Shown here: positions 20,998 through 61,525 of the stretch, one piece after another
Layout: each line of letters begins with the position of its first letter
Numbering within the stretch: position 1 is the first letter of the stretch
Source: Herbaspirillum frisingense
GTDB lineage: Bacteria > Pseudomonadota > Gammaproteobacteria > Burkholderiales > Burkholderiaceae_D
Assembly: GCA_009914615.1 (NCBI GenBank)
Contig: WNDX01000006.1
Span: forward strand, 1-61,667
DNA: 61,667 nucleotides
Reading direction: 5' to 3'
Program-made: the position numbers and the translations under genes
The notes under the pieces: generated by a model
Seen by the model: only the letters and a program-made list of their open reading frames with translations
What the model was told of the DNA's origin: nothing
Databases searched by the model: none

Positions 20998-22319
20998 TCA
21001 ATAGAACAACTTCATCAGCACCGTCGCCACCACCACCATCGCCGCTCCGCCGATGCGCGTGGAAATCTGCGCGAACGGCACAGCCCCATGCGGTTGGACG
21101 AAGACAGGATGGCCACGTCGCCGGTGCCGCCCAGGCCGCTATGGCAAGCCGTGACGATGGCCGATTCCACCGGATACATCTTCAGCCAGGCGCCGACAAA
21201 GAAACCGGTCGCCACCATGGCCAGCACAATGGTGGCGCAGATCACGAAATAGGCCGGCGAAAACGCCGCCATCAGCTTGTCCCAGGAGACGAAGAGCGTG
21301 CCCAGGCCGACCAGGATGGCGAAGGTCAGGTTGGTGGACATGAATTTGTACATCTGATACGCGCCGGTTTCCATGCTCTCGGGAATCGCGCGCGCCACCT
21401 TCAGCAGCGCCGCCGCCAGGATCATCAGCACCGGCCCGGGAATGCCGGTCAGCGGCGCCAGCAGCTCGCCCAGGATGAACAGCGTGCAGCCCAGCAGCAA
21501 GCCGGCGCCCATCAGGCGCAGGTCGATCGGCGCCTCGTCCTTCTTCTCGCGCAGCAAGGCTTGGTCTTCGCCGGTGCGCACCAGCACGCCGTCGCCGCTG
21601 TAATGACGATGCTTCTCGCCGAAGCGCTTGAGCAGGCCGGCCGAGAGGATCGCCACCACGTTGCCGATCAACGCCGCCGGCACCAGCGAGGCGATCAGGT
21701 CGCCCTGCGGCGTCCCCAGGATCTGCGCATAGCCGATCGACAGCGGCAGCACGCCCTCGCCGATGCCGCCGCCCAGGATGGGCACGACGATGAAGAAGAA
21801 GGTGTGCTTGGGATCGTAGCCGAACGCCAGGCCGACCAGCATGCCGGCGCCGACCGCCGCCGCGGTGCCTGCCAGCAGCGGCACGAACATCTTCATGAAG
21901 CCCTGGATCAGGATCTTGCGGTTCATGCCCAGGATGCTGCCGGCCACCAGGCAAGCGATGTAGAGATATTGCAGATTGGCCGTTTTCATCGTGGTGGTGA
22001 TGGTCTTCAGCGCCGCCGGATCCATCAGCTTGTAGCCGATCAGCGCCGACGGCACGAACAGGCACAGAATGGCCGGGCCGCCGATATGGCGCAACACGGG
22101 AATGCGCTTGCCGATCTCGGACAGCAGCAGGCCGGCCAGCATCAGCACGGCGAAACCGCCGATCATGTCGTTGGGCAGGCGCCCGGTGGCAATCGCCAGC
22201 GCGGTCACCAGCGTGACCGCGGCGAACATGGTCAAGGGCATGCCGCCGATGCGCAATTGCGCGATGGCGGAAAGACGGCCGAGCGCCGGCGCGTCCTGTT
22301 GGATGGATGGACTTTCCAT
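20998..22319 (-). CDS. 2-hydroxycarboxylate:cation symporter (CitS/MaeN family), frameshifted near 3' end
   Basis: About eleven hydrophobic segments and both family hallmark loops identify a 2HCT transporter: PILGGGIGEGVLPLS in the first half and HSGLGGTGDVAILS in the second. Members import citrate, malate or related 2-hydroxy acids with Na+ or H+. As read, the frame goes off after SNRMGL into a Trp-rich, non-family tail stopping at 21015. Adding one base at about 21080/21081 (expected CTGATGCCG) gives a tail reading MPFAQISTRIGGAAMVVVAT and a stop at 20998, about 440 residues, the normal length. It is followed on the same strand upstream by the leuCD-type genes, so they probably form one operon. 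Confidence 0.82.
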
Positions 22320-38091: not shown

Positions 38092-38104
38092 TCCGGAACC
38101 GGTC

Positions 38105-39019
38105 TCAGGCCACGGCCGACAAGGCCTCCAGCAAGAATTCCGCGGCCACGCGCACCCGTGTCGGCAGCCCGGTGCGCGCCCGCGTCATGATGAGGATCGG
38201 CGCCTGGTCGAACTGCCACCCCTCCAGCACCCGCACCAGCCGGCCCTGGCGCACCGGCTCCTCGACATCCCATTGCGAACGCAGCACGAAGCCCAGCCCC
38301 TGCTCGGCCCAGTAGCGCGCGGTGGCGCCGTCGTTGCTCAGCAGTGCCGGCTGCACGCGCAGCGATTCGCGTGCGCCGGCGCGCCCTTCCGCAGCCTGCT
38401 TCTCGCGCCGGTAATGCCACAGGCTGCCGTCCTCTTCGTTCTCGCGGATGCAGATGCAGGCGTGCGTCAGCAGATCCCTGGGCGCAGCCGGTTTGCCGCG
38501 GCGCTTCAGATAGGCCGGGCTGGCGCACAACCAGCGTTCGTTGCCGGCCACGGTGCGCGCCACCCAGGAAGAATCGCGCACGCTGCCGATGTGGAACACG
38601 ATGTCGGCCTCGTGCCGATCCGGCCAGGGCGTTTCGCGCAGATCCAGTTCGATGCGCAGGCCCGGATGCAGACGGGCCAGGCGCGCCACCAGCGGCGCCA
38701 CGCGTTGCCGGCCGTAGCCGAACGGGGCGGCGATCTTGAGCTTGCCGTCCAGCCCGCGCCCCTGTTGTTCGAACATCGCCGGCAGTTGCGCCATCCTCGC
38801 CAGCAGGCCTTGCGCTTCCTGCGCCAGCGCCTGGCCGTCGTCGGTCAGCGCCAGCCGGCGCGCGGTGCGGGTGGCCAGCAGCACGCCCATGGCCGCCTCC
38901 AGCGCGCGCAACCGCATCGACAGCGCCGGCGGCGTCAGGTTGAGCTGGCGCGCGGCTTCGCTGAGCGAGGCGCTGCGCGCCAGCGCCGCCATCAGCTGCA
39001 GGTCCTCGACCTTGATCAT
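38105..39019 (-). CDS. LysR-family regulator divergent from the aldolase/OCD gene pair
   Basis: The 304-residue protein has an N-terminal HTH (SASLSEAARQLNLTPPALSM) and an effector domain from about 90. Its architecture and GKLKIAAPFGYGRQRVAPLV block resemble the other DsdC/GcvA-like regulator at 24.6 kb. It is divergent by 94 bases from the D-threonine-aldolase-like gene and is the likely controller of the two-gene operon there. It is convergent with the patatin gene, 13 bases apart. Confidence 0.9.
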   Translation of the reverse strand: MIKVEDLQLMAALARSASLSEAARQLNLTPPALSMRLRALEAAMGVLLATRTARRLALTDDGQALAQEAQGLLARMAQLPAMFEQQGRGLDGKLKIAAPFGYGRQRVAPLVARLARLHPGLRIELDLRETPWPDRHEADIVFHIGSVRDSSWVARTVAGNERWLCASPAYLKRRGKPAAPRDLLTHACICIRENEEDGSLWHYRREKQAAEGRAGARESLRVQPALLSNDGATARYWAEQGLGFVLRSQWDVEEPVRQGRLVRVLEGWQFDQAPILIMTRARTGLPTRVRVAAEFLLEALSAVA

Positions 39020-39113
39020 TCAATTTTCCTTAATGATGGATTCGCCCATATTTAAGCACGGCTGCGCGCAAAGCCTCTATATTCGCGCTACCCCTTCTCT
39101 CCCCGGACTCGCC

Positions 39114-40246
39114 ATGACCGCGCTCAGCCAGCTCAACACGCCCGCCGCCCTGATCGACATTCCGCGCATGCAGCGCAACATCGCCCGCATGCAAACGCGC
39201 ATGGATGCGCGGGCGTGAGCTTCCGCCCGCATGTGAAGACCAGCAAGAGCACTGACGTCGCCGCCTTGCAGCGCGCAGCCGGCGCGCGCGGCGTCACGGT
39301 CTCGACGCTGCTGGAGGCGCAACACTTTCATGCCGCCGGCATCGACGACATCCTCTACGCGGTCGGCATGGTGCCGGCCAAGCTGCCGCAGGCGCTGGCC
39401 CTGCGCCGCCAGGGCTGCGCGCTCAAGATCATCACCGACAGTCTGGCTTCGGCCCGCGCCATCGCCGATTTCGGGCGCGCGCACGACGAGGTCTTCGAGG
39501 TCTGGATCGAGATCGACAGCGACGGCCACCGTTCCGGCATCCGGCCGGAACAGGAGGCACTGCTGGAGGTCGGCCGCTGCCTGCATGAAGGCGGCATGCG
39601 CCTGGGCGGGGTGCTCACGCATGCCGGCTCCAGCTACGACTACGACACGCCCGAAGCGCTGCAAGCGATTGCCGAACAGGAACGCGCGGCTTGCGTGAAT
39701 GCCGCCTTGCGCCTGCGCGCCGCCGGCCTGCCCTGTCCGGTGGTCAGCATCGGCTCGACGCCGACCGCGCTGTCGGCGGCCAGCCTGGAAGGCGTGACCG
39801 AGGTGCGCGCCGGCGTGTATGTGTTCTTCGACCTGGTGATGCACAATGTCGGCGTCTGCACCCAGGATGACATCGCCCTAAGTGTGCTCACCACCGTGAT
39901 CGGTCACCAGGAAGAAAAAGGCTGGGCCATCGTCGATGCCGGCTGGATGGCCATGAGCCGCGACCGCGGCACACAGAAGCAGAAACACGACTTCGGCTAC
40001 GGCCAGGTGTGCGACGCCGCCGGCACGCCGCTGAAGGACTATCTGATCACCGGCGCCAACCAGGAACATGGCATCCTCTCGCTGCGCGAAGGCGTGGACC
40101 GGGACATCGTCAAGCGCTTCCCGGTCGGCACGCAATTGCGCATACTGCCCAACCACGCCTGCGCCACCGGCGCCCAGTTCCCGAGCTACCAGGCGCTCGC
40201 GGCCGACGGCACCGTCCAGAACTGGCCGCGGCTGCACGGCTGGTAA
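39114..40246 (+). pseudogene. D-threonine aldolase / DSD1-family PLP enzyme, frameshifted at codon ~33
   Basis: The ATG at 39114 opens with MTALSQLNTPAALIDIPRMQ, then stops at 39219. A second frame continues directly with SFRPHVKTSKSTDVAALQRA to 40246. Adding one base after 39209 (expected GCGCTGGGCGTG) merges them into about 377 residues, the normal length for this fold-type III PLP family. The PLP-Lys is in the HVKTSKS segment. The metal-binding HAC motif near the end (PNHACATGAQF) matches D-threonine aldolases, D-serine dehydratases and beta-hydroxyaspartate aldolases. The stop near the start would silence it unless the deletion is a sequence error. A ketimine-reductase-like gene follows. 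Confidence 0.82.
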
Positions 40247-40269
40247 GCCCCTCACCAGAAAGGTCATGC

Positions 40270-41271
40270 ATGAATACGTCTTCCTCCAGCCCGGCTACGT
40301 CGTCCACCGCAGAAGCGCGACTGCTGCTGCTGGACAAGCATGCCGTCGAGGCCCTGCTCACGCCCGAAGCGGTGCTGCCAGCCGTGCGCGAAGCCTTCCT
40401 GCTACATGCCGCGCGCGAAGGTCGGGTGTTTCCGCTGGTGCGCGAAGCGCTGTCCACCGGCGGCGTGTTCGGCATCAAATCCGGCGACGTGCCCTCGCAA
40501 GGCTTGCTGGGCTTCAAGGCGGCCGGTTTCTGGCCGGCCAACCGGGCGCTGGGCGGCGAGCCGCACCAGGCCACCATCATGCTGATTTCGCCGGAAACCG
40601 GTCGCCCGCTGTGCATCATCGACGGCAATGCCGTCACCACCATGCGCACCGGCGCCGCCGGCGCGCTAGGCCTGATGCAATTGGCGCGTCCCGACAGCCG
40701 CCGGCTGACGATCTTCGGCATCGGCGTGCAAGCCAGGATCCAGCTTCGCTTCGCGCTCGACAGCATGCCGTCGCTGCAGCAGGTGCGCTACGCCGGCAGC
40801 CGCGGCGAGCGCGATGCCGGCTTCGAACAGGCGTTCGCCGCGCGCTGCGACATCGCCCCGGCCGCCGACCGCAACCAGGCCGTGGCCGACAGCGACATCG
40901 TCATCACCGCCACGCCCGGCAAGGGCGCCTTGTTCGACGCCGATGCGGTGCAGCCGGGCACGCATCTGAACTGCGTGGGCGCCGATACCAAGGGAAAACG
41001 GGAATTGCCGCAAGAGCTATTGCAGCGCGCCAGGATCTGCGTGGACGACGCCGCGCAGGCGCGCCAGGTCGGCGAAATGCAATGGGCGCCGGAACTGCCG
41101 GTGGTGGAACTGGGCGACCTGCTCGGCGGCCAGGCCCGTCTGGAACGCGCCGACGATGACATCACGCTGTTCGACATGACAGGGCTGGCGCTGCAGGATC
41201 TGACGGTGGCGCGCAGGCTGTATCGCCAGGCGCTGGAAGACGGTCAGCCGGGCGTCGCCTGGCCCTGGTGA
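40270..41271 (+). CDS. Ornithine cyclodeaminase / mu-crystallin family imine reductase
   Basis: This 333-residue protein of the OCD/mu-crystallin fold has a dimerisation/substrate domain with the KSGDVPSQGLLGFKAAGFWP segment and CIIDGNAVTTMRTGAAGALG, then a Rossmann domain with LTIFGIGVQARIQLRF. Family members include ornithine cyclodeaminase, pyrroline-2-carboxylate reductase, alanine dehydrogenase and iminosuccinate reductase. Pairing with a D-threonine-aldolase-fold enzyme recalls the bhcC/bhcD pair of the beta-hydroxyaspartate cycle. The start at 40270, with AAAGG upstream, was preferred to the long frame that begins inside the previous gene. Confidence 0.85.
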   Translation: MNTSSSSPATSSTAEARLLLLDKHAVEALLTPEAVLPAVREAFLLHAAREGRVFPLVREALSTGGVFGIKSGDVPSQGLLGFKAAGFWPANRALGGEPHQATIMLISPETGRPLCIIDGNAVTTMRTGAAGALGLMQLARPDSRRLTIFGIGVQARIQLRFALDSMPSLQQVRYAGSRGERDAGFEQAFAARCDIAPAADRNQAVADSDIVITATPGKGALFDADAVQPGTHLNCVGADTKGKRELPQELLQRARICVDDAAQARQVGEMQWAPELPVVELGDLLGGQARLERADDDITLFDMTGLALQDLTVARRLYRQALEDGQPGVAWPW

Positions 41272-41287
41272 TGCGGCAGGCTGCGCG

Positions 41288-42136
41288 TCAGCCGGGTTCG
41301 CCGGGCTGCGCGCCTTCTTGCGGATCTTGCGCAACGCCGCGCTCGCGACGGCGCTTGCGCGTTTCCTGCGGCGGGAAGCCGAAGAATTCCAGCACGCTGT
41401 TGGCGACCTGGTCGCGGTCGTTGTCCACGCAGATCATGTGATAGCTGTTTTCCAGCACCACCACGCGCGCATCGGCGATCTGATCGTTGAGGAATTCGGC
41501 CGAGCGCAGGCTGGTCAGCTCATCCTCGCGGGCATGCACCACCAGCGTGGGCGCGGCAATGTTCCTGGCGCCGGCCATGGCCCAGGCGCGCAAGCGGTCC
41601 ACCTGGCGCACGCAGATCAGCGGCACCCAGCGGTAATGGAAATTATCGCCGCGCTCGAACTTGGCCTTCACCACCGCGCGCACCAGCGTGTTCTTGATGC
41701 CGAAAGGCTCGCCCTCTTCCACCTTCATGCGCTTGGACAAACCGGGAATCAGGTAGAACAGCGTGCGCAACCCCGCATACCAGGGCGTGGACCAGCCGTC
41801 GATATAGATCGGCGGCGCCAGCGTCACCAGCTTGCCCTGCGCCGGGCCGTGGCCGACGCGCTCGGCCAGCACCAGCGCCACCAGCGAGCCCATGCACATG
41901 CCCACGATATGCAACTGGTCATAGTGCGGCTGCAGCGCGCGGTATTGCACCCGCACCGCCTCCACCCACTGCTCGGCGCGCACGCCAGCCAGGTCTTCCG
42001 GCGTCGTGCCGTGCCCGGCCAACGTGATGGCGTGCGTCTCCACCCCCGCTTTGTTGAGGATCTTGTGCAGTGAACCCAGATCGTATTGGGTGCCGCCCAG
42101 CCCGTGGATGAGCAAGGCGCCGACGCGTGCGCTCAT
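41288..42136 (-). CDS. Alpha/beta hydrolase with cysteine at the nucleophile position
   Basis: The 282-residue hydrolase resembles Est30-type carboxylesterases: oxyanion region IHGLGGTQYDL, cap-region residues in the middle, Asp in VHAREDELTS and His in NSYHMICVDND. The nucleophile elbow reads GMCMGS, with Cys81 where Ser is expected, an arrangement seen in dienelactone hydrolases but unusual for this group. The C-terminal 25 residues are charged (ETRKRRRERG) and absent from typical members. The gene start overlaps the MASE1 gene stop by one base (TAATG), so they are probably cotranscribed. Confidence 0.8.
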   Translation of the reverse strand: MSARVGALLIHGLGGTQYDLGSLHKILNKAGVETHAITLAGHGTTPEDLAGVRAEQWVEAVRVQYRALQPHYDQLHIVGMCMGSLVALVLAERVGHGPAQGKLVTLAPPIYIDGWSTPWYAGLRTLFYLIPGLSKRMKVEEGEPFGIKNTLVRAVVKAKFERGDNFHYRWVPLICVRQVDRLRAWAMAGARNIAAPTLVVHAREDELTSLRSAEFLNDQIADARVVVLENSYHMICVDNDRDQVANSVLEFFGFPPQETRKRRRERGVAQDPQEGAQPGEPG

Positions 42137-43422
42137 TACTCGCTCCGGCCCGCCGCGTTGGGTGCGTCCGGCTGCGCATCGGCGAAGCGCCAGACGCCGG
42201 CCACCACGGCCAGCCGGTCTTCAGCGTCCAGCAGGCTGCGGCTCATGTCGAGCACCACCTCGCCGCCGGCTTGCAAACGGAACGGCATGTCGGCGCGCTC
42301 GTCGCCGTCGGCGCCATCCAGCCAGCGCTGCCGCAGGCGCGCCTGATCCAGCGGCGAGATCAGCTTGAGCACCTGCTCCAGCGTCTGCACGCGCGCGGCC
42401 GGCTGGCCCAGCAAGGTCTCGACGTCGCCGCTCCAGGTGAAGCTCAGCTTTTGCGGATCCAGCGTGTAGGCCAGCTGGCGGCTGGCCGACAGCGACAGTT
42501 CGACCTCGTTCTTCCAGCGCGCCACGTCTTCATGCAATTGCTCACGCGTGGTCTTGAGCGCGCTGATCAGCAGCGACAGCAGTGAAGCCACGGCCAGATA
42601 AACCTGCAGCTCCAGCAAGGCATTGCTGGAATGCAGCTGCACCAGTTGCACGAAGGGGCCGCGTCCCAGCGAGTTATAGACGAAGGCCATCAGCGATAGC
42701 ACCGCCACCGACAAGGCGCCGCCGCGCCCGCCCCAGAGGATGGTGACCAGCGCCAGGAAGAACAGCGGCACATAGGTCGTGGCGAAGTCGATATCGAAGA
42801 TGATGCGATCAAGGTCGCTATCGAAAGCCACATAGGCCGAGAGCACCATGGCCGCGAAAGACGCCAGGCCCAGCAGGAATTCGGTGCGCGCGATGCCGCC
42901 CGAGCGGGTGGCGCGAAATTGCGACCAGCCGGCCAGCACCGGCGTCATGATCAGGATGCCCACCAGGTCGGACAGCGACCAGATGCGCAGCGTCTGCCAG
43001 AACGACACGCCTTGCATGACCTGGAACCAGCCCGCGCCGAAGATGCCGCTCACCACGCTGGCGCCGACGCCAATCAGCAGCAGCCCGCGCACGAAGTACA
43101 GGCCCTCCATCGGGAACGGCGCACGCCGCACCAGCCACACGGCGATGGCGGCCACGCCGATTTCATTGAGCGAAAACAGCATCATGCGCAACAGGTCGCG
43201 CTGCTCGACCCAGCCCAGCAGCACCTGCGCCGCCACCAGCAGCACCAGCAGCGGGAACCAGCGCGCCGTCGGCGTCAACAGCAGCGCGCCCACCGTGATC
43301 CCGGCCGGCAGCCAGATGTAGCCGCTGGCGATGAAAGCGCCGTTGAGCTCATGCGAGGCGAAGCCGAACAGGAAATAGACGACAGCCCACGCCAGCGGCG
43401 CGACGAGATAATTTGATTTCAC
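42136..43422 (-). CDS. MASE1-domain membrane sensor protein without an obvious output domain
   Basis: The 428-residue protein has about eight hydrophobic segments with the MASE1 pattern (GFASHELNGAFIASGYIWLP near the start and a WSLSDLVGILIMTPVL motif). After the last helix a short coiled-coil-like linker (TTREQLHEDVARWKNEVELS) leads to a PAS-like region of about 110 residues. No GGDEF, EAL or histidine kinase domain follows, unlike most MASE1 proteins. The start used is GTG at 43422 with GGGGA upstream; the open frame reaches 43518. Tight coupling to the hydrolase gene suggests joint function, unknown. Confidence 0.78.
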   Translation of the reverse strand: MKSNYLVAPLAWAVVYFLFGFASHELNGAFIASGYIWLPAGITVGALLLTPTARWFPLLVLLVAAQVLLGWVEQRDLLRMMLFSLNEIGVAAIAVWLVRRAPFPMEGLYFVRGLLLIGVGASVVSGIFGAGWFQVMQGVSFWQTLRIWSLSDLVGILIMTPVLAGWSQFRATRSGGIARTEFLLGLASFAAMVLSAYVAFDSDLDRIIFDIDFATTYVPLFFLALVTILWGGRGGALSVAVLSLMAFVYNSLGRGPFVQLVQLHSSNALLELQVYLAVASLLSLLISALKTTREQLHEDVARWKNEVELSLSASRQLAYTLDPQKLSFTWSGDVETLLGQPAARVQTLEQVLKLISPLDQARLRQRWLDGADGDERADMPFRLQAGGEVVLDMSRSLLDAEDRLAVVAGVWRFADAQPDAPNAAGRSE

Positions 43423-43592
43423 GATGAAGTCCCCGGGATGAAGGCGACGGCCGGCGCGATGTTCGATGGGCGATCCACGATGCATTTCGCGTGCCGGTCC
43501 GGCGCGGACGCGGGCCATTCTATCAGGCCGGGTTGAAGGTTTCGTGAGCGTTTGCCGGACTGCTATCGCGCGCCGGGCCGCAATCGTTATAG

Positions 43593-43611
43593 AATGCGAA
43601 CAATTCTCATT
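43593..43611. promoter_or_regulatory. Fur-box-like operator before the FecI/receptor chimera
   Basis: AATGCGA-ACAAT-TCTCATT is a near-perfect 7-5-7 dyad matching the Fur consensus arrangement. It ends two bases before the ATG at 43614. It implies iron-repressed transcription of the former fecI gene; inference by motif. Confidence 0.7.
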
Positions 43612-43613
43612 AA

Positions 43614-44923
43614 ATGTCCCGCATTCCGATGGCCGCTTCAGACCTGTGCGCCGCCGACGGCGTCGCCGCTCCTGATTTCAGCACGCTCTATGCCCAGCAC
43701 CACGGCTGGCTGCATCAGTGGCTCCGCGCGCGCCTGGGCAACGCCTTCGATGCCGCCGACCTGACTCAGGACACCTTCACACGGGTGCTGGCCGGCCGCA
43801 ACGTCGCCGCCATCGGCGAGCCGCGCGCCTATCGCACCACTGTCGCCAAGGGCATCCTGTTCGGGCGCACCCACAGCGCGGTGCTGGGCGCCAACTACAA
43901 CCGCTATGCCTACGACTACGGCAACTACAGCCGGCTGCTCAATACCGTGGATCGTCAGGCGGTCAACATTCTCAACCTGGGCGCGGTGGCGCGACCCGAT
44001 TTCCGCTATCCGGTCAACCAGTTCAGCGGCGTGACCGAGGAAAAGGCGGTCTATGGCGCGCTGCGCTTCAAGCCGACCGATGCTTTGTCGGTGATCGTCG
44101 GCAGCCGTCTGTCCTGGTACGACAACGACCTGTTCAGCCGCACCTGGCAAGGCGGCGCCAACGGCCGTGGCGTGGCCAGCAGCTCGGGCCATGAAAGCGC
44201 GGTCTTCACGCCCTATGGCGGCATCGTCTATGACCTCGACGACACCTGGTCGGCCTATGCCAGCTACACCAACATCTTCCAGCCCAACACGGTGAGCAAC
44301 GCCAGCAACCAGATCATCGATCCGCGGCGAGGCACCAACCTGGAATTGGGGTCAAGGGCGAACACATGGGCGGCAAGCTCAATACCAGCTTCGCCGTGTT
44401 CAAGGTGGAAGAAGACAACGCCACCGAACTCGATCCGGGCGCCGCACCGCTGCCCGACGGTTCGGCCGCCTATCGCGCCGTCAACGGCGCCAGCACGCGC
44501 GGCTTCGAGACCACCGTCTCCGGCGAAGTGGCGCGCGGCTGGCAGCTCATGGCCGGCTATACCTACAGCGCCAAGTTCACCAGCAAGAACGTGCTGATGA
44601 ACACCAACTATCCGCAGCGCATGTTCCGCCTGGCGACCAGCTATCGCCTGCCGGGCGCCCTGAGCAAGCTGACCGTGGGCGGCAACCTGTCCTATCAGAG
44701 CGGGATTTCCTATGTCGAGACCTACAGCAACCAGACCGCCACCATGGGCGGCATGACGCTGATCGGCCTGATGGCGCGCTACGAAGTCACGCCGCAACTG
44801 AGCCTGTCGCTCAACGTCGAGAACCTGACCGACAAGTACTACTACACCGGCCTGGGCGGCTACAACGGCTACACCTACGGCAATCCGCGCAATACCTGGC
44901 TGAAGGCTAACTACAAGTTCTGA
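43614..44923 (+). pseudogene. Chimera of FecI-type sigma factor N-terminus and TonB receptor barrel, also frameshifted
   Basis: Residues 1-80 read as a FecI-type ECF sigma factor (LYAQHHGWLHQWLRARLGNA, DAADLTQDTFTRVLAGRN, then TTVAKG). Without a break the frame becomes a TonB-dependent ferrisiderophore receptor barrel (ILFGRTHSAVLGANYNRY onward). The rest of fecI, all of a fecR and the receptor plug are missing, about 3 kb by usual sizes. A second lesion follows: the frame leaves the receptor after NLELG at about 44350, where one missing base in GGGG shifts it. The barrel then continues in another frame to its proper end, WLKANYKF, at 44923. Neither a sigma factor nor a receptor can be functional as written. 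Confidence 0.85.
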
Positions 44924-45002: not shown

Positions 45003-45908
45003 TTACTCCACCACGCGCAGCGAAAAATCGGCCGCCTGGATGTCCTTGGTCAGGCTGCCGATGGAGATGCGGTCCACGCCGGTGTCGGCGATGGCGCGCA
45101 CGGTCTGCATGTTGATGCCGCCCGAGGCTTCCAGCACGGCGCGGCCGGCGTTCACTGTCACTGCTTCGCGCATCATCTCCAGCGAGAAGTTGTCCAGCAG
45201 GATGGAGACCGCGCCGGCCTGCAGCGCTTCGTTCAGCTCGGCGATGTTCTCGACTTCCACCTGGATGCTGACGCCGGCGTTGAGCTTCTGCGCCGCGCCG
45301 ACCGCCGCGGTGATGCCGCCGGCGGCGGCGATGTGGTTTTCCTTGATCAGGATGCCGTCGTACAGCGCCAGGCGCTGGTTGGCGCCGCCGCCCACGCGCA
45401 CCGCGTACTTCTGCGCCAGGCGCAGGCCGGGGAGCGTCTTGCGGGTGTCGAGGATGCTGGCCTTGGTGCCGGCCACCACGTCCACGTAGCGGCGCGTGGC
45501 GGTGGCCACGCCGGACAGCAACTGCAGGAAGTTCAGCGCGCCGCGTTCGGCGGTCAGCAAGGCGCGTGCCGGGCCGGCGATGGCGCAGACCTCGGTATCG
45601 GCTTGCATCAGGTCGCCTTCGGCATAGCTCCAGGTGACTTGCAGGCGCGGGTCGAGGCGCGTCATGACGGCTTCGAACCAGGGCGCGCCGCACAGCACGG
45701 CGGCTTCGCGCACGATCACGCGGGCCTTGACGAATTCGCTCTCCGGCACCAGCAGGCCGGTGTAGTCGCAATCACCGACGTCTTCCGCGATGGCGAGGTT
45801 GACGTTGACGTCGAAGGCCGCATGCAGCGCGGCGTCGAACGGCGCGAAGGGATTGCGCAGGTTGCTGGCGGCGATGCTGGAGTTGGGTTTGATGGCGTGA
45901 AGTGTCAT
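45003..45908 (-). CDS. nadC: Nicotinate-nucleotide pyrophosphorylase (quinolinate phosphoribosyltransferase)
   Basis: The 301-residue enzyme converts quinolinate and PRPP to nicotinate mononucleotide in NAD synthesis. Visible blocks are [17 protein letters not shown], the [20 protein letters not shown] phosphate/substrate loop and the closing [19 protein letters not shown] barrel strand. The start overlaps the nadA stop as ATGA, so the two form a nadA-nadC operon. Length is normal and the frame is intact. Confidence 0.96.
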
Positions 45909-54987: not shown

Positions 54988-57126
54988 TTATTCGGCAGTC
55001 AGCGCGGCCACCGGATCCAGCCGCGCCGCCTTGCGCGCTGGCATGTAGCCGAACAGCAGGCCGGTGGCGACCGCGCAGCCGAAGGCGGCGAGCATCGAGG
55101 TCAGCGAAAAGATCAGCGGCACGCCCGCCAGCATCAGTGCCAACCCGATCGCTAGGCCAGCGGCCACACCGGCGCTGCCGCCCACCAGCGTCACCAGCAC
55201 CGCCTCGGTCAGGAACTGGCGCAGGATATCGCGCCGGCGGGCGCCGGTGGCCAGGCGGATGCCGATCTCGCGGGTGCGCTCGCGCACCGTCATCAGCATC
55301 ACGTTCATCACGCCGATGCCGCCCACCAGCAGCGACACCGCCGCCACCAGCGACAGCATCATGGTCATGGTGTCGCGCGTCCTGGCCTCCGCCGCGATTG
55401 ACGCCGCCGCGTTGCCGATGCTGAAGTCGCGTAGGCGGTGGCGCTCCAGCAGCAGCGCTTCGACCTGTTCCTGCGTATCGAGGATGCGCCCGACGTCGGC
55501 CACCGCCATCACGGTATAGGTCGGCTCGCGCTGGCCGAACACCTTCACGCCGGCAGTCGAGAACGGCATGATCAGGATATTGTCTTCGTCGCGGTCGCCG
55601 GTCAGCGCGCCCTTCTGGCTCATCACCCCCACCACCTGGAACGGCACGTTGCCGATCAGCACATGACGGCCGACCGGGTCTTCCACGCCCGGCATCAGCT
55701 CGCGCGCCAGCTTGTGGCCGAGCACCGCCACCGAGGCCAGCTCGCGCTCGTCGTCGCGCGAGAAGAACGCGCCCCGCGCCACCGGCCAGGTCTGGATTTC
55801 CGGCAGGCCGGCGCCGGTGCCGCGCACATAGGTCTGGATGTCCTGGTTACCGTAACGCACCACCTTGTTGCCGGTGACATTGGGCAGCACCTGGACGATG
55901 TTGGGAATCTCGGCCACCGCTTCCAGGTCCTGCAGCGTGATGCTGCGCCCGGGGATGCGCGAACTCTCGCCGATCGAGGCCATGTACATCAGGTTGGAGC
56001 CGAAGCGCCCCAACTGCGCCACCACTTGCTGCCGCGTGCCCAGGCCGATGGCCATCATGACGATCACCGAGGCCACGCCGATGACGATGCCCAGCAGCGT
56101 CAGCCCGGTGCGGAAGCGATTGATCCACATCACCCGCCAGGCGGCACGCGCGGCCTCGCGCAGTTCGGCCAGCAACAGGCGCGGCGGATCGGATTGCGGG
56201 AGCGGCGGCTGCGCCGTCATCTGCGGCATCAGCTCGCCATCCTTGTTATCGACATCAAACAGCGCGGTATAGACGATCACCTTGTTGCTCGACGGCGCCA
56301 GCGCGCTGTCGGCGCTCTTGCCCTCGGACGACGGCGGCGCCGGCAGCACCTGGCGCACCTGGCCGTGCCAGCGGCGGCGCTCGGCGCCCAGCGTGGAGAA
56401 ATACACCGGCATGCCGGCGCGCACCTTGCGCACCTCGGCTTCGGACACTTCGGTCCACACCGTCATCACCGACAGATCGGCGATGCGCAGGATATTGGGC
56501 GTCTGGTAGGTGGCGTTCAGGGTCTGGCCCTCGCGCGCCTCGACCGACACCACGGTGCCGTCCATGGGCGCGTAGATGCGGGTATAGCCCAGGCGCACCT
56601 CATCGGCCTGGACGGTAGCGGAGGTCTGGGTGATTTGCGCCTTGATGTGATCAATGCGGGCGGCCGCCGTGGATAGCGCTGCATCGGCGATATCGATGTC
56701 CTCGGCGCGGGTGGCGCCGCCGACATCGAGCTGGCGCTGGCGCGCCGACTGGCGTACGGCCAGCATGTGCTGGGCCTGCTGTTCGGCCAATTGGGCGCGC
56801 AGCCCGGTGAGCGAGGCGCGGCCGGCATCGACGGTGGCCTTTTGCACGCTGGGATCGATCTCGACCAGCAGTTGGCCCTTCTTGACGGCGTCGCCCGGCT
56901 GTACGTGCAGGTGCTGGATCTGGCCCGAGACCTGGGCGCCCACATCGACGAAGCGGCGCGGCTGCAGCTTGCCGACCGCGGTCACGCTGGATTCGATGTC
57001 GCCGCGCCCGATCAGCGCGGTATCGTATTCGACCGCCGGCCGCGAGAACTGCCATGCGGCCGCGCCGGCCGTAGCGGCCAGCGTCATTCCCAGGAATATC
57101 TTGCGTCTGTTCTTGCCCCCTCTCAC
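54988..57126 (-). CDS. MacA-MacB fusion lacking the ATPase domain (probable deletion product)
   Basis: Residues 1 to about 306 are a MacA periplasmic adaptor: N-terminal anchor, lipoyl and hairpin region with VGAQVSGQIQHLHVQPGDAV and APMDGTVVSVEAREGQTL. At MPQMTAQ, where MacA normally continues to its C-terminal beta-domain, the protein switches to PPLPQSDPPRLLLAELR. From there it is the MacB permease: first helix at about 340-360 and a periplasmic core. The three terminal helices run from VSLLVGGIGVMNVMLMTVRE to VAALTAE. The MacA tail and the whole MacB Walker ATPase are missing, about 1 kb. The frame is intact, but transport without an ATPase is unlikely. The start is GTG at 57126 with GAGGGAGG upstream. 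Confidence 0.82.
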   Translation of the reverse strand: MRGGKNRRKIFLGMTLAATAGAAAWQFSRPAVEYDTALIGRGDIESSVTAVGKLQPRRFVDVGAQVSGQIQHLHVQPGDAVKKGQLLVEIDPSVQKATVDAGRASLTGLRAQLAEQQAQHMLAVRQSARQRQLDVGGATRAEDIDIADAALSTAAARIDHIKAQITQTSATVQADEVRLGYTRIYAPMDGTVVSVEAREGQTLNATYQTPNILRIADLSVMTVWTEVSEAEVRKVRAGMPVYFSTLGAERRRWHGQVRQVLPAPPSSEGKSADSALAPSSNKVIVYTALFDVDNKDGELMPQMTAQPPLPQSDPPRLLLAELREAARAAWRVMWINRFRTGLTLLGIVIGVASVIVMMAIGLGTRQQVVAQLGRFGSNLMYMASIGESSRIPGRSITLQDLEAVAEIPNIVQVLPNVTGNKVVRYGNQDIQTYVRGTGAGLPEIQTWPVARGAFFSRDDERELASVAVLGHKLARELMPGVEDPVGRHVLIGNVPFQVVGVMSQKGALTGDRDEDNILIMPFSTAGVKVFGQREPTYTVMAVADVGRILDTQEQVEALLLERHRLRDFSIGNAAASIAAEARTRDTMTMMLSLVAAVSLLVGGIGVMNVMLMTVRERTREIGIRLATGARRRDILRQFLTEAVLVTLVGGSAGVAAGLAIGLALMLAGVPLIFSLTSMLAAFGCAVATGLLFGYMPARKAARLDPVAALTAE

Positions 57127-58019: not shown

Positions 58020-58964
58020 TCAAGCCGGGATGAACAGCTCCTCTTCCGGCTGCAAGGCGAAGCCGCCGCGCTTCATGCGCAACAATTCTTCCGCCGGCGG
58101 CAGGCCGAACAGGCGCTTGAATTCGCGGTTGAATTGCGAGGCGCTCTCGTAGCCCACCTGGCCGCTGGCAGACACCGCGCTCAGACCGTGCCGCTGCATC
58201 AGCATGCGCGCCCGGTGCAGCCGCACCGATTTCAGGTATTGCAAAGGCGAGCTGCCGGTGGCGTGACGGAAATGCACGTGGAACACCGGCACGCTCATGC
58301 CGGCCTCGCGCGCCATCCGTGCCACCGTCAGCGGCTGCATGTGACGCGAGATCATCAGCCGTATCGTGCGCGCTACATCGCCGAAGCGGCCCTTGCCGCT
58401 CAACGCCGCGCGCCAGGCCCCGCCCTGTGCGCCGCTCAGCGTGCGGAAGAATATCTCGCGCAACAGCGAGCGGCCCAGCACGCGCGTCTCGGTGACGTCG
58501 CCCGCCACTTCCAGCAGACGTTGCAGCGATGCGCTCATGTGCGCATCGAGATCGACCTGGATGCGCGCCCGCGGCGCCGGCAACTCGACGCTGCGCTGCT
58601 CGGTCTCGCGCAGCAGTTCGTTGACCAGCTTGCCGTCCAGCCGCAGATGCGCGGCCAGCAGCGGCTTGTCTTCGCTGGCCTCGATCTCGCAAAAGAACGG
58701 CAACGGTACCGTCAGCAAGCGGTAATGGCCGACATCCGATTCGGCGGCGTCTTCGGCGATGTAATCGCGCTTGCGGCCTTGCGCCACCAGCAGGATGCCG
58801 GGGCCCTGCAAGACCGGCATGCGCGGCAAGGGCCGGTCGGCGCGCAATACGCGCAGCTCGGCCAGGCTCGTCGGGTTGTAGCCCTCTTGAGGGGCAAGCG
58901 CTGCCAGCAATTCCACCGTGCGTGATGAGGCTGGGTCTTCGGACGCGTGTGCGCGCTTGTTCAT
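58020..58964 (-). CDS. AraC-family regulator
   Basis: The 314-residue regulator has an N-terminal AraC-N type sensing domain (about 30-190, GILLVAQGRKRDYIAEDA, FFCEIEASEDKPLLAAHL). The C-terminal double HTH (about 205-305) contains LTVARMAREAGMSVPVFHVH and GYESASQFNREFKRLFGLPP. The start at 58964 follows AAGGAGT. It lies between the DUF4198/MacAB operon and the receptor remnant, all on the minus strand, and may have regulated either; the ligand is unknown. Confidence 0.88.
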   Translation of the reverse strand: MNKRAHASEDPASSRTVELLAALAPQEGYNPTSLAELRVLRADRPLPRMPVLQGPGILLVAQGRKRDYIAEDAAESDVGHYRLLTVPLPFFCEIEASEDKPLLAAHLRLDGKLVNELLRETEQRSVELPAPRARIQVDLDAHMSASLQRLLEVAGDVTETRVLGRSLLREIFFRTLSGAQGGAWRAALSGKGRFGDVARTIRLMISRHMQPLTVARMAREAGMSVPVFHVHFRHATGSSPLQYLKSVRLHRARMLMQRHGLSAVSASGQVGYESASQFNREFKRLFGLPPAEELLRMKRGGFALQPEEELFIPA

Positions 58965-59090
58965 GCATTACTCCTTGGGTTTTATTGTTGTTCGCGGCAC
59001 GGGCCGCGGGTTGAAGGATCCGCATGCGGCGGATGGCTGGATCTGTTTTCTCCTTGTCAGGCCCTGTCGTCACGCGACAGGCGCCGCGCA

Positions 59091-59127
59091 TAAAATGGCC
59101 GGACACCGCCTCGCGAGGCATCCGGCC
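59091..59127 (-). terminator. Terminator-like hairpin after the receptor remnant
   Basis: On the minus strand, GGCCGGA / TCCGGCC enclose an inner perfect dyad (GCCTCGCGAGGC), and the hairpin is followed by ATTTTAT. A smaller hairpin (59063-59081, CCTGTCG/CGACAGG) lies farther on. Confidence 0.6.
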
Positions 59128-59139
59128 GCCCCTCCGCGA

Positions 59140-59894
59140 TCAAAACGCCACGCGCGTTCAGACCGAGCGTGCGCGGCGCTCCCCGCAAAAATGTAATTGG
59201 CGCCGTTGTAGACCCAATAGCGGTTATCGGTCAGGTTCTGGATCTGGATCTGGGCGTTGAAGCCGACATCCTTGCCACCCATGCGCGTGCGATATGGCGC
59301 GTCGACGTCGACGCTGTAGTAGGACGGCAGATCCAGGTCGGTAGTGGCATTGAGCTTGCAGCGCCCGACATCGCGGCCGCCGGCATTGAGCGTCAGGCCA
59401 GCCCCTTGCGGCACGCGGTAGCGCACGGCGGCGGCAGCCTGGAAGCGCGGTGCGCCGGTCACCGCCTTGCCTTCCATCGCGGCGGCGGCCTGCTTGTATT
59501 TGGCGTCCAGCCACATCGCGCCGCCGCTCAGCGACAGCCCCGGCGTGACGTCATCGCGGCCCGACAGATCCAGGCCCGGGTAGCGTGTCTCGCCGTCCTG
59601 TGCGTCGTAGTTGGCGGTGTTAACGTATTCAGCGGTGCGCTGAAGATGGAACAGTGCGGCGCTGGTCATCCAGTGCGATTGTTCCAGCGGACCGGCCGGA
59701 ATGCTGTAACTCAGCGTTTGGACGGTGCCCCGGGCCGGTGCCGGCACAGCCTCGGCAGCACGCGCCTGCACCGCCGTGGCCGCGATCGCCAGCGCCAGGC
59801 CGCCGGCCATGGGCACATGCGAAGTGGCGGACAGCGCCCGCGACGGGCGGCATTGAGCAAGGGACAGGCCGTAGCGGACGGCGGGATGGTGCAT
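59140..59894 (-). pseudogene. TonB-dependent receptor with its middle deleted and a scrambled 3' end (FecA type)
   Basis: After a signal peptide and the first lines of a secretin/STN signalling domain (LSYSIPAGPLEQ, residues 61-72), the frame jumps at about 59678 to the last third of the barrel (SHWMTSAALFHLQRTAEYVN). Plug and most strands, roughly 1.5 kb, are missing. The last strand is also out of frame: one extra base near NYIFAGS and two missing bases later separate the visible frame from the expected ...NARVAF end at 59140. The wrongly framed translation runs on to 59070. The gene starts with a good ribosome-binding site (GAGGATAGC) at 59894 after fecR. A working receptor is not encoded. 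Confidence 0.82.
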
Positions 59895-59965: not shown

Positions 59966-61003
59966 CTACGGCTGCGTGCTGTTTTTTTCCGGCGCAGCGG
60001 CCAGGTTGATCCAGTAGCGCGTATGGCGCTCAACGCGTATCGGGAAAGCCAGCTCCAGCGCCTCCAGGATGCGGTCGCTGCCGTCCAGCGGGAACACGCC
60101 GGTGATGCGGATGGCGGCAACGTCCTCATCCACGCTGAGCAGGCCGCGCCGATAACGCGCCAGCTCGGCGACCAGCTCGCCCAACGGGCGGTCGCGCACC
60201 ACCAGCATGCCCTGGATCCAGGCTTGCCCGTTGGGATCGAGCGCCGCGATCTCGGCCACGGCGGCGGCGTCGAACACGGCTTGCCGCCCGGCCTCCAGCA
60301 CCAAGCCTCCGTCGACACCGTGACGCGGCGAAATGCGCACCGCGCCTTCCATCACCTCCACCTTGCTCAGTCCTCCACCGCCGAAGAAGTCGTCCGGCCT
60401 GAGCTGGCGCACGATGAAGTGCGTGCCCAGCGCGCGCACCCGGCCCTGGGCCGTATCGACCACGAAGGGCTGGGCGCGCCATACCGGATCGTGTGCCGTC
60501 TCGATCATGATCGCGCCGCGCCGCAAGGCGACCCGGCGCAAGCCATCCTCGAAACGGATATCGACGGCGCTGTCGGTATCCATGACCATCCTGCTGCCGT
60601 CCGGCAGCGTCAGTTCGCGCCGTTCGCCCACACCGGTGCGGTGGTGGGCGGCCAGCGCGATCAGTTCATGGCGGCCGCCATGGCACAGCGCGCCGAGCGC
60701 GGTCGCCCCCACCAGGCCCAGCACATGACGCCGCGATATCCGCGGGCGCGCGGCCCGGGTGTTGCCGCGCAGCGCCTGCCCGGCTGCCTGCGCCGGCATG
60801 CCCTGCAAGGCGGACTGGAAACCGCGCACGGCTTCCCAATACTGGCGATGGGCCGGATCGGCCTCCAGCCAACGGGTGAAATCCTGGCGTTCCTGCGTCG
60901 TCACTTCCCCGGACGCCAGCACCACGAACCAGTTCAAGGCCTGGTCGAGCGCGTCGCCGGCGCAAACCGTGCGTTTTTTGGGGCGCAAGGAAATCACGGA
61001 CAT
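59966..61003 (-). CDS. fecR: FecR-type anti-sigma/sigma regulator
   Basis: The 345-residue membrane regulator has a cytoplasmic N-terminal DUF4880-like part (DALDQALNWFVVLASGEVTT, FTRWLEADPAHRQYWEAVRG), a single helix region after RRHVLGLVGATALGALCHGG and a periplasmic FecR core (ERRELTLPDGSRMVMDTDSA, GLVLEAGRQAVFD). Its C-terminal STN-like segment ends NSTQP. FecR relays receptor occupancy to FecI. It appears intact, but both its partners here are damaged: the sigma factor gene is cut by an IS and the receptor is deleted, so this signalling unit should be inactive. Confidence 0.9.
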   Translation of the reverse strand: MSVISLRPKKRTVCAGDALDQALNWFVVLASGEVTTQERQDFTRWLEADPAHRQYWEAVRGFQSALQGMPAQAAGQALRGNTRAARPRISRRHVLGLVGATALGALCHGGRHELIALAAHHRTGVGERRELTLPDGSRMVMDTDSAVDIRFEDGLRRVALRRGAIMIETAHDPVWRAQPFVVDTAQGRVRALGTHFIVRQLRPDDFFGGGGLSKVEVMEGAVRISPRHGVDGGLVLEAGRQAVFDAAAVAEIAALDPNGQAWIQGMLVVRDRPLGELVAELARYRRGLLSVDEDVAAIRITGVFPLDGSDRILEALELAFPIRVERHTRYWINLAAAPEKNSTQP

Positions 61004-61019: not shown

Positions 61020-61525
61020 TCAGCGGGACGCCGGCGCAGCGCCCGGATCCTGCATCGCCAGGAAGCAGGCGCGGGTCGCCGTCAGCATGTGTTTGCGCAC
61101 GGTGGCCACGGCGATGCCCAGCGCGTCGGCGATAGCGCTGTAGGTCATCCCGTCGAACTGGGACATGAAGAAGGCCTCGCGCACCTTGGCCGGCAAGCCC
61201 GCCAGCGCACAGTCGATGGCGCCCAAGGTCTGCAGCACGATCATGGTGTCTTCATGGGAGGGGGAAACCGCTTCGGGCAAGGCTGCCAGCGCCTCGAGAT
61301 AGGCTGCCTCCAGCTTGCGGCGACGATACAGGTCGATCACCAGATTATGGGCGATGCGCACCAGATACGGGCGCGCTTCTTCCGGCCTGGGCATGGTGCG
61401 GCCGGTGGCCACGCGCACATAGGTATCCTGCGCCAGGTCGGCGGCATCGCCGCTGTTGCCCAGCTTGCGCTGCAGCCACTGCACCAGCCAGCCGTGATGG
61501 CCGCTATACATCTGATGCAGAGGAT
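61020..61525 (-). pseudogene. fecI: FecI-type ECF sigma factor, 5' end cut off by IS insertion
   Basis: Read leftward from the IS junction near 61525, the frame gives PLHQMYSGHHGWLVQWLQRK and continues through region 2 (DAADLAQDTYVRVATGRT, YLVRIAHNLVIDLYRRRKLE). Region 4 (LAGLPAKVREAFFMSQFDG, IADALGIAVATVRKHM) runs to a stop at 61020, 17 bases before fecR. Family members have about ten residues and a start upstream of this point, exactly where the IS begins. An internal ATG at 61511 could restart translation and lose only the extreme N-terminus, so partial function cannot be ruled out. Confidence 0.85.

Follow-up and report, generated by a model that had tools for sequence, protein, structure and literature searches.

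The open reading frame at 43614-44597 of the Herbaspirillum frisingense window (the whole stretch of DNA that was analysed, 61,667 nucleotides, contig WNDX01000006.1, here C211) is in all likelihood part of a pseudogene, namely, of a fecIRA operon that decayed by a deletion of about 2.8 kb and a frameshift, in a neighbourhood with further deletions, relaxed selection and illegitimate recombination being the likely causes. The genome (4.69 Mb, 254 contigs) is 99.32% complete, and the deletion junction, J1, is known only from this one draft assembly. As is typical of a pseudogene formed by deletion, relatives carry intact orthologues at this position, searches of the remaining genome did not recover the missing DNA, and the frame is disrupted.

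The ORF (plus strand, 327 aa) joins in a single frame the start of a FecI-type sigma factor and a siderophore receptor barrel, as was described in an earlier note made from the sequence (about 80 sigma factor residues followed by a barrel); the sigma factor part amounts to 81 codons. Pfam profiles identified Sigma70_r2 at residues 25-80 (33.3 bits, profile positions 1-59 of 71) and, in the same frame, a TonB receptor barrel (67 bits). In NCBIfam, the start of the product points to FecI-type sigma families and the barrel to FhuE/FauA-type receptors, with scores far below the FecI and FauA cut-offs. In alignment with both parents, the DNA follows FecI until about 43856 and the receptor from there on, the translation at J1 reading KGILFGR, which includes the GILFG stretch in which the note had located the joining. 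The locus and its syntenic anchors comprise the following features:

42136..43518, minus strand: MASE1-domain gene, left syntenic anchor (synteny, domain search)
43590..43612, plus strand: Fur-like operator block, kept, upstream of fecI (conservation in relatives; a putative Fur box, named by similarity to a Fur consensus)
43614..43856, plus strand: fecI remnant of 81 codons from the start of the gene, with sigma region 2 and without region 4 (Pfam Sigma70_r2)
43855..43862, plus strand: deletion junction J1 (alignment of both parents)
43857..44923, plus strand: receptor barrel remnant, equal to residues 496-850 of the receptor of H. robiniae HZ10 (G009), with a frameshift near 44350
45003..45908, minus strand: nadC (quinolinate phosphoribosyltransferase), right syntenic anchor (synteny, domain search)

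The fused frame does not run to 44923, as had initially been assumed. It stops at 44597, and 44923 is the end of the receptor gene, whose barrel is split near 44350, with the last 185 codons (44366-44923) lying in another frame; thus, the gene carries two lesions, J1 and this frameshift. Sigma region 4, which the 176-aa orthologue of G009 has in addition to region 2, is absent from the 327-aa ORF, and no FecR sigma regulator was found between 43614 and 44923. A receptor with plug and full barrel, both of which are present in the G009 protein, was not found at this locus, where the barrel is partial and frameshifted. The N-terminal region of the receptor is gone as well; even in the intact G009 receptor, the STN domain scores 15.7 bits and thus stays below the cut-off of 28.4.

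A DNA search of 34 genomes of the genus, including that of the window, revealed four others with a barrel closely similar to this one: G009 (90%), G031 (89%), G027 (83%), and G002 (73%). In the first three of these, a complete fecI-fecR-receptor operon is located between the MASE1 gene and nadC, so the alignment to syntenic relatives that the note had proposed recovered the full operon at the same place in three of the 34 genomes. The operon of G009 encodes a sigma factor with regions 2 and 4, a FecR protein of 328 aa (FecR domain, 83.2 bits), and a receptor of 850 aa with plug and barrel. In G031 and G027, fecR was matched by tblastn, and the matches to fecI, fecR and the receptor are free of stops. 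The barrel and fecI matches of G002 are on a contig other than that of its MASE1 and nadC genes.

In alignment with the three syntenic relatives, the window is shorter by 2828, 2773, and 2816 bp, which is close to the loss of about 3 kb estimated previously. The DNA lost at J1 comprises the 3' end of fecI, the entire fecR, and receptor codons 1-495. Two origins suggested in the note, a deletion by short homology and the remnant of a once complete fecIRA, are supported together by synteny, while the homology is a matter of merely 4 bp common to both deletion ends in G009 and 3 bp in G031 and G027; the alignment of both parents gave no longer shared sequence at J1. Among random pairs of points, at least 4 bp are shared in 2.8% and at least 3 bp in 6.9%. 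Homology of this length is compatible with illegitimate recombination, and is no proof of it.

The synteny with three relatives suggests that the ancestor had a complete cell-surface-signalling operon behind the Fur-like operator between the MASE1 gene and nadC, with genes of the FecI sigma factor, the FecR sigma regulator, and an FhuE/FauA-like TonB-dependent receptor. As the alignment shows for this assembly, one deletion of about 2.8 kb took away sigma region 4, fecR, and the N-terminus, the plug and the first barrel part of the receptor. J1 happens to be in frame, and the frameshift near 44350 breaks the barrel again. To judge from the known parts of FecIRA systems (reviewed in PMC9249621), sigma region 2 should recognise no promoter in the absence of region 4. 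A frameshifted barrel that has neither signal peptide nor plug should not reach or gate the outer membrane.

The Fur-like operator that the note had reported as preserved is indeed present at 43590-43612, with zero to two differences in four relatives: all 23 bp are shared with G031 and G027, G009 differs at one base and G002 at two, while the DNA upstream of the block has diverged. It is a putative Fur box by its 12 of 19 matches to a Fur consensus. Scores of 12 or 13 of 19 were obtained at 36 places of the window on both strands, two of them being the block itself, and hence the consensus score alone means little. For this predicted Fur site, conservation of the block means more than its score.

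A second iron cluster lies nearby, on the minus strand:

61020..61511, minus strand: fecI2, intact (Pfam sigma regions 2 and 4; 88% to G025)
59966..61003, minus strand: fecR2, intact (Pfam FecR and DUF4880; 73.6% to G025 over the full length)
59070..59894, minus strand: second receptor remnant, with junction J3 near 59680, then a frameshift near 59170
58020..58964, minus strand: AraC-family regulator of the second iron cluster, intact
54988..57126, minus strand: macA::macB fusion of 712 aa, with junction J2 near 56190-56210

The note had mentioned a second damaged fecIRA 16 kb away; this description fits the receptor at 59070-59894, which is broken, and does not fit fecI2 and fecR2, both of which look intact. 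The second receptor is of 274 aa, as compared to 839 aa in G025, and about 1.7 kb is missing. J3 unites the signal-peptide region and the start of STN with the final portion of the barrel, and a frameshift follows near 59170, as seen from the C-terminal motif, which is in another frame. In the 712-aa ORF, a broken exporter beyond what the note had described, residues 1-306 of MacA are fused to the MacB permease from about residue 249, and the approximately 1.0 kb missing at J2 includes the ATPase domain of MacB. A search with macA::macB at 1e-60 gave any match in 23 of the 34 genomes. Among the matches listed, the closest represent separate macA and macB genes (G025, G027, G018, G004, G020, G002, and G022), and none outside the window's own genome covers both halves. 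No long shared sequence is evident at J2 and J3 on inspection by eye; the exact breakpoints are uncertain, as 16 and 78 window bases, respectively, align to neither side there. According to the alignments, two further deletions within 16 kb broke the receptor and the MacAB-type exporter of the second cluster. We infer that the fused ORFs are non-functional.

The likely cause of these losses is relaxed selection on redundant siderophore uptake, with the deletions themselves probably made by random illegitimate recombination. In Herbaspirillum seropedicae, 28 TonB-dependent receptors and a normal rice colonisation by a triple receptor mutant are reported in PMC6037834, which makes it plausible that one or two such systems can be lost without strong cost. 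Our survey of fecIRA sets, which covered the window and 13 other contigs or contig parts of the same genome, identified at least four other fecI-fecR-receptor sets that are full-length by alignment (contigs C23, C181, C213, and C247). The loss of an iron-sensing system, as postulated in the note, applies to the operon at 43590-44923, and at least these four full-length sets persist.

In kind, the locus represents ordinary gene decay, and the clustering of the lesions is mildly interesting. What remains puzzling is that three in-frame deletions are clustered in two iron modules within 16 kb; J1, J2, and J3 are all in frame, for which the chance is 1 in 27 if the frame is random. Conceivably, though this is unlikely, the two iron modules (about 10 kb apart) were dismantled together by three independent in-frame deletions, which the compared relatives do not show, through counter-selection of the receptors or through a local deletion-prone process that favours in-frame products. 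The remainder of the window stayed mostly whole, as did the four other fecIRA sets. If so, a phage or bacteriocin using both receptors, or a vanished siderophore source, could serve as examples of such counter-selection.

The age of the loss was addressed by counting substitutions in the remnants of the first operon (fecI and the two parts of the barrel) and in those of the second cluster (macA, macB, and the receptor). In the barrel, synonymous and non-synonymous changes are 23:11 on the window's own branch vs. 26.5:15.5 on the G009 branch (p = 0.81, rounded counts), with no clear non-synonymous excess that would indicate relaxed selection on this remnant. The second receptor leans to relaxation (own 18:21 vs. 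10:5, p = 0.23), as does macA (p = 0.14), and the macB counts are 31.5:15.5 (own) vs. 31:9; since the intact controls, nadC and the MASE1 gene, lean in the same way (73:44 vs. 64:20, p = 0.046), nothing is concluded from these leanings. The fecI remnant, of 77.7% DNA identity to G009, is more diverged than the barrel, and the fecI genes of relatives differ among themselves about as much as the remnant does. If the loss is real, it is too recent for a clear substitution signal. Remnants without a clear excess of amino acid changes favour the word "recent", which the note had used, and this support is only indirect: the absence of a relaxation signal would be expected equally from a recent deletion and from an assembly error.

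Such an error, i.e., a misassembly or chimeric consensus in which the assembler dropped the middle of an operon that is intact in the organism, appears to us quite improbable. The draft state of the assembly with its 254 contigs, the absence of clear relaxation, and the fact that a single contig holds all three large in-frame losses together with frameshifts at three places (near 21085, 44350, and 59170) can be read in its favour. However, the missing pieces were found on no other contig. The missing G009 stretch gave in the window's own genome matches of paralogue level only (65-68% over pieces of at least 400 bp), the best one being 1.1-1.2 kb at 66%, while in the positive control the whole probe of this stretch matched G031 at 82% and G027 at 77%. 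The missing fecR and receptor plug, which the note had recommended to search for elsewhere in the genome, were thus not found in a 99.3%-complete assembly, paralogues being the only matches. The probe for the second receptor, taken from G025, gave nothing in the own genome or in G002 and one 80-bp match in G031, and it matched G027 at 81% and G009 at 78%; the macAB probe found in the own genome nothing better than an ABC gene on contig C2 (71%), which lies in a region colinear with G009. Usual assembly overlaps are far longer than the 3-4 bp shared at J1, and the four paralogous fecIRA sets were assembled whole.

In a small control that comprised 4 of 20 stretches of own contigs, those aligning over more than 2.5 kb to the compared part of G009, no two-gene fusion was evident among 64 ORFs. 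These stretches, each from a different contig other than that of the window, amount to about 68 kb of alignment; ten of the 64 ORFs were flagged, one being matched over just 39% of its length. For the window itself, 51 selected ORFs of the syntenic part of G009 were compared, of which 38 were unflagged (matched in one piece) and 13 flagged. The latter include both receptors, a pair of antisense ORFs located in or beside the missing part, and one frameshifted gene near 21085; the remaining eight are ORFs with a coverage of 0.22-0.93 or an extra short piece. One unflagged ORF (335427, antisense, within the missing part) has its sole match, of 41%, at a paralogous place. The frameshifted gene, at 21001-22319 on the minus strand, is that of a 2-hydroxycarboxylate transporter, and its frameshift near 21085 is near the 3' end.

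Linkage of the two anchors, the MASE1 gene and nadC, was seen in 22 of the 34 genomes, and the fec operon at this site is patchy: the matches to the anchors are 124-327 bp apart in 17 genomes and about 4.4 kb apart in the three that have the whole operon, while the distance is 1.55 kb in the window and 8.7 kb in G014. No leftovers of the operon were evident at the two empty sites that were read (G025 and G003). The 8.7 kb of G014 has no match to fec or mac proteins; by eye, the two largest ORFs of this stretch (on contig C102 of G014) resemble a large filamentous surface protein and its outer-membrane exporter, so that the site would take other cargo too. About 3.2 kb of the window has no counterpart at the corresponding position of G009, G031, and G025, and it carries the following genes:

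within 38092-41334: LysR regulator, D-serine-dehydratase-like gene, ornithine-cyclodeaminase-family gene

It is very improbable that this lineage acquired the remnant horizontally, as a fragment, and never had the complete operon. The patchiness of the operon, with nothing of that size between the anchors in 17 of the 22 linked genomes, may suggest this, but both operon ends agree in order and location with those of G009, G031, and G027, whose barrels share 83-90% identity with the remnant. A working protein, e.g., a truncated regulatory sigma domain kept in frame by selection, could draw on the in-frame J1, the kept operator, and the two neighbouring deletions that are likewise in frame, but we rejected it as having hardly any likelihood, since the frame is lost again near 44350 within the barrel, the plug and sigma region 4 are missing, and the search of the other 33 genomes of the genus showed no such fusion.

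Taken as a pseudogene, the locus provides a clean case of the loss of an iron-sensing operon, in which the intact copies at the same site in sister species make the deletion ends directly readable. With the second broken iron cluster nearby, nature offers a small test for distinguishing random decay of receptors from their selected loss. For annotators, the 327-aa and 712-aa ORFs are a warning, as they most likely represent debris rather than novel fusion proteins. Among the papers listed on FecI, TonB-dependent receptors or genome reduction in Herbaspirillum, on sigma/receptor fusions, and on fecI/fecR or receptor pseudogenes, none dealt with this locus by its title or the opening of its abstract.

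Among known systems, the FecI-FecR-FecA signalling operon, as presented in PMC9249621, is resembled by the order of genes in the relatives (sigma factor, sigma regulator, and receptor behind a Fur-like site), and it differs from the locus at 43614-44923, which is without fecR, sigma region 4, and the receptor N-terminus and plug. A natural sigma/anti-sigma fusion, IutY of Pseudomonas putida, is described in PMC9249621 (see also PMC5411451); there too, an iron-responsive ECF sigma factor is fused to another part of the same pathway, but IutY works and keeps both sigma domains and a membrane-anchored regulator. In the window ORF, by contrast, the sigma factor ends with region 2, where a frameshifted barrel takes over, so that the combination of both sigma domains with the regulator in a single open frame is not found in the 327-aa product. 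Both parent genes of the 712-aa ORF, presumably members of the MacA-MacB family, have the domains of the MacA-MacB tripartite exporter, while the fusion differs from this exporter by having no ATPase domain. In bacterial gene loss, pseudogenes are formed by internal deletion. Related studies concern Bordetella (PMC5045587) and Aeromonas (PMC2556355). The private deletions and frameshifts of the window, in dispensable genes, are of the same type as such internal-deletion pseudogenes, from which the window departs solely by its three in-frame joins within 16 kb.
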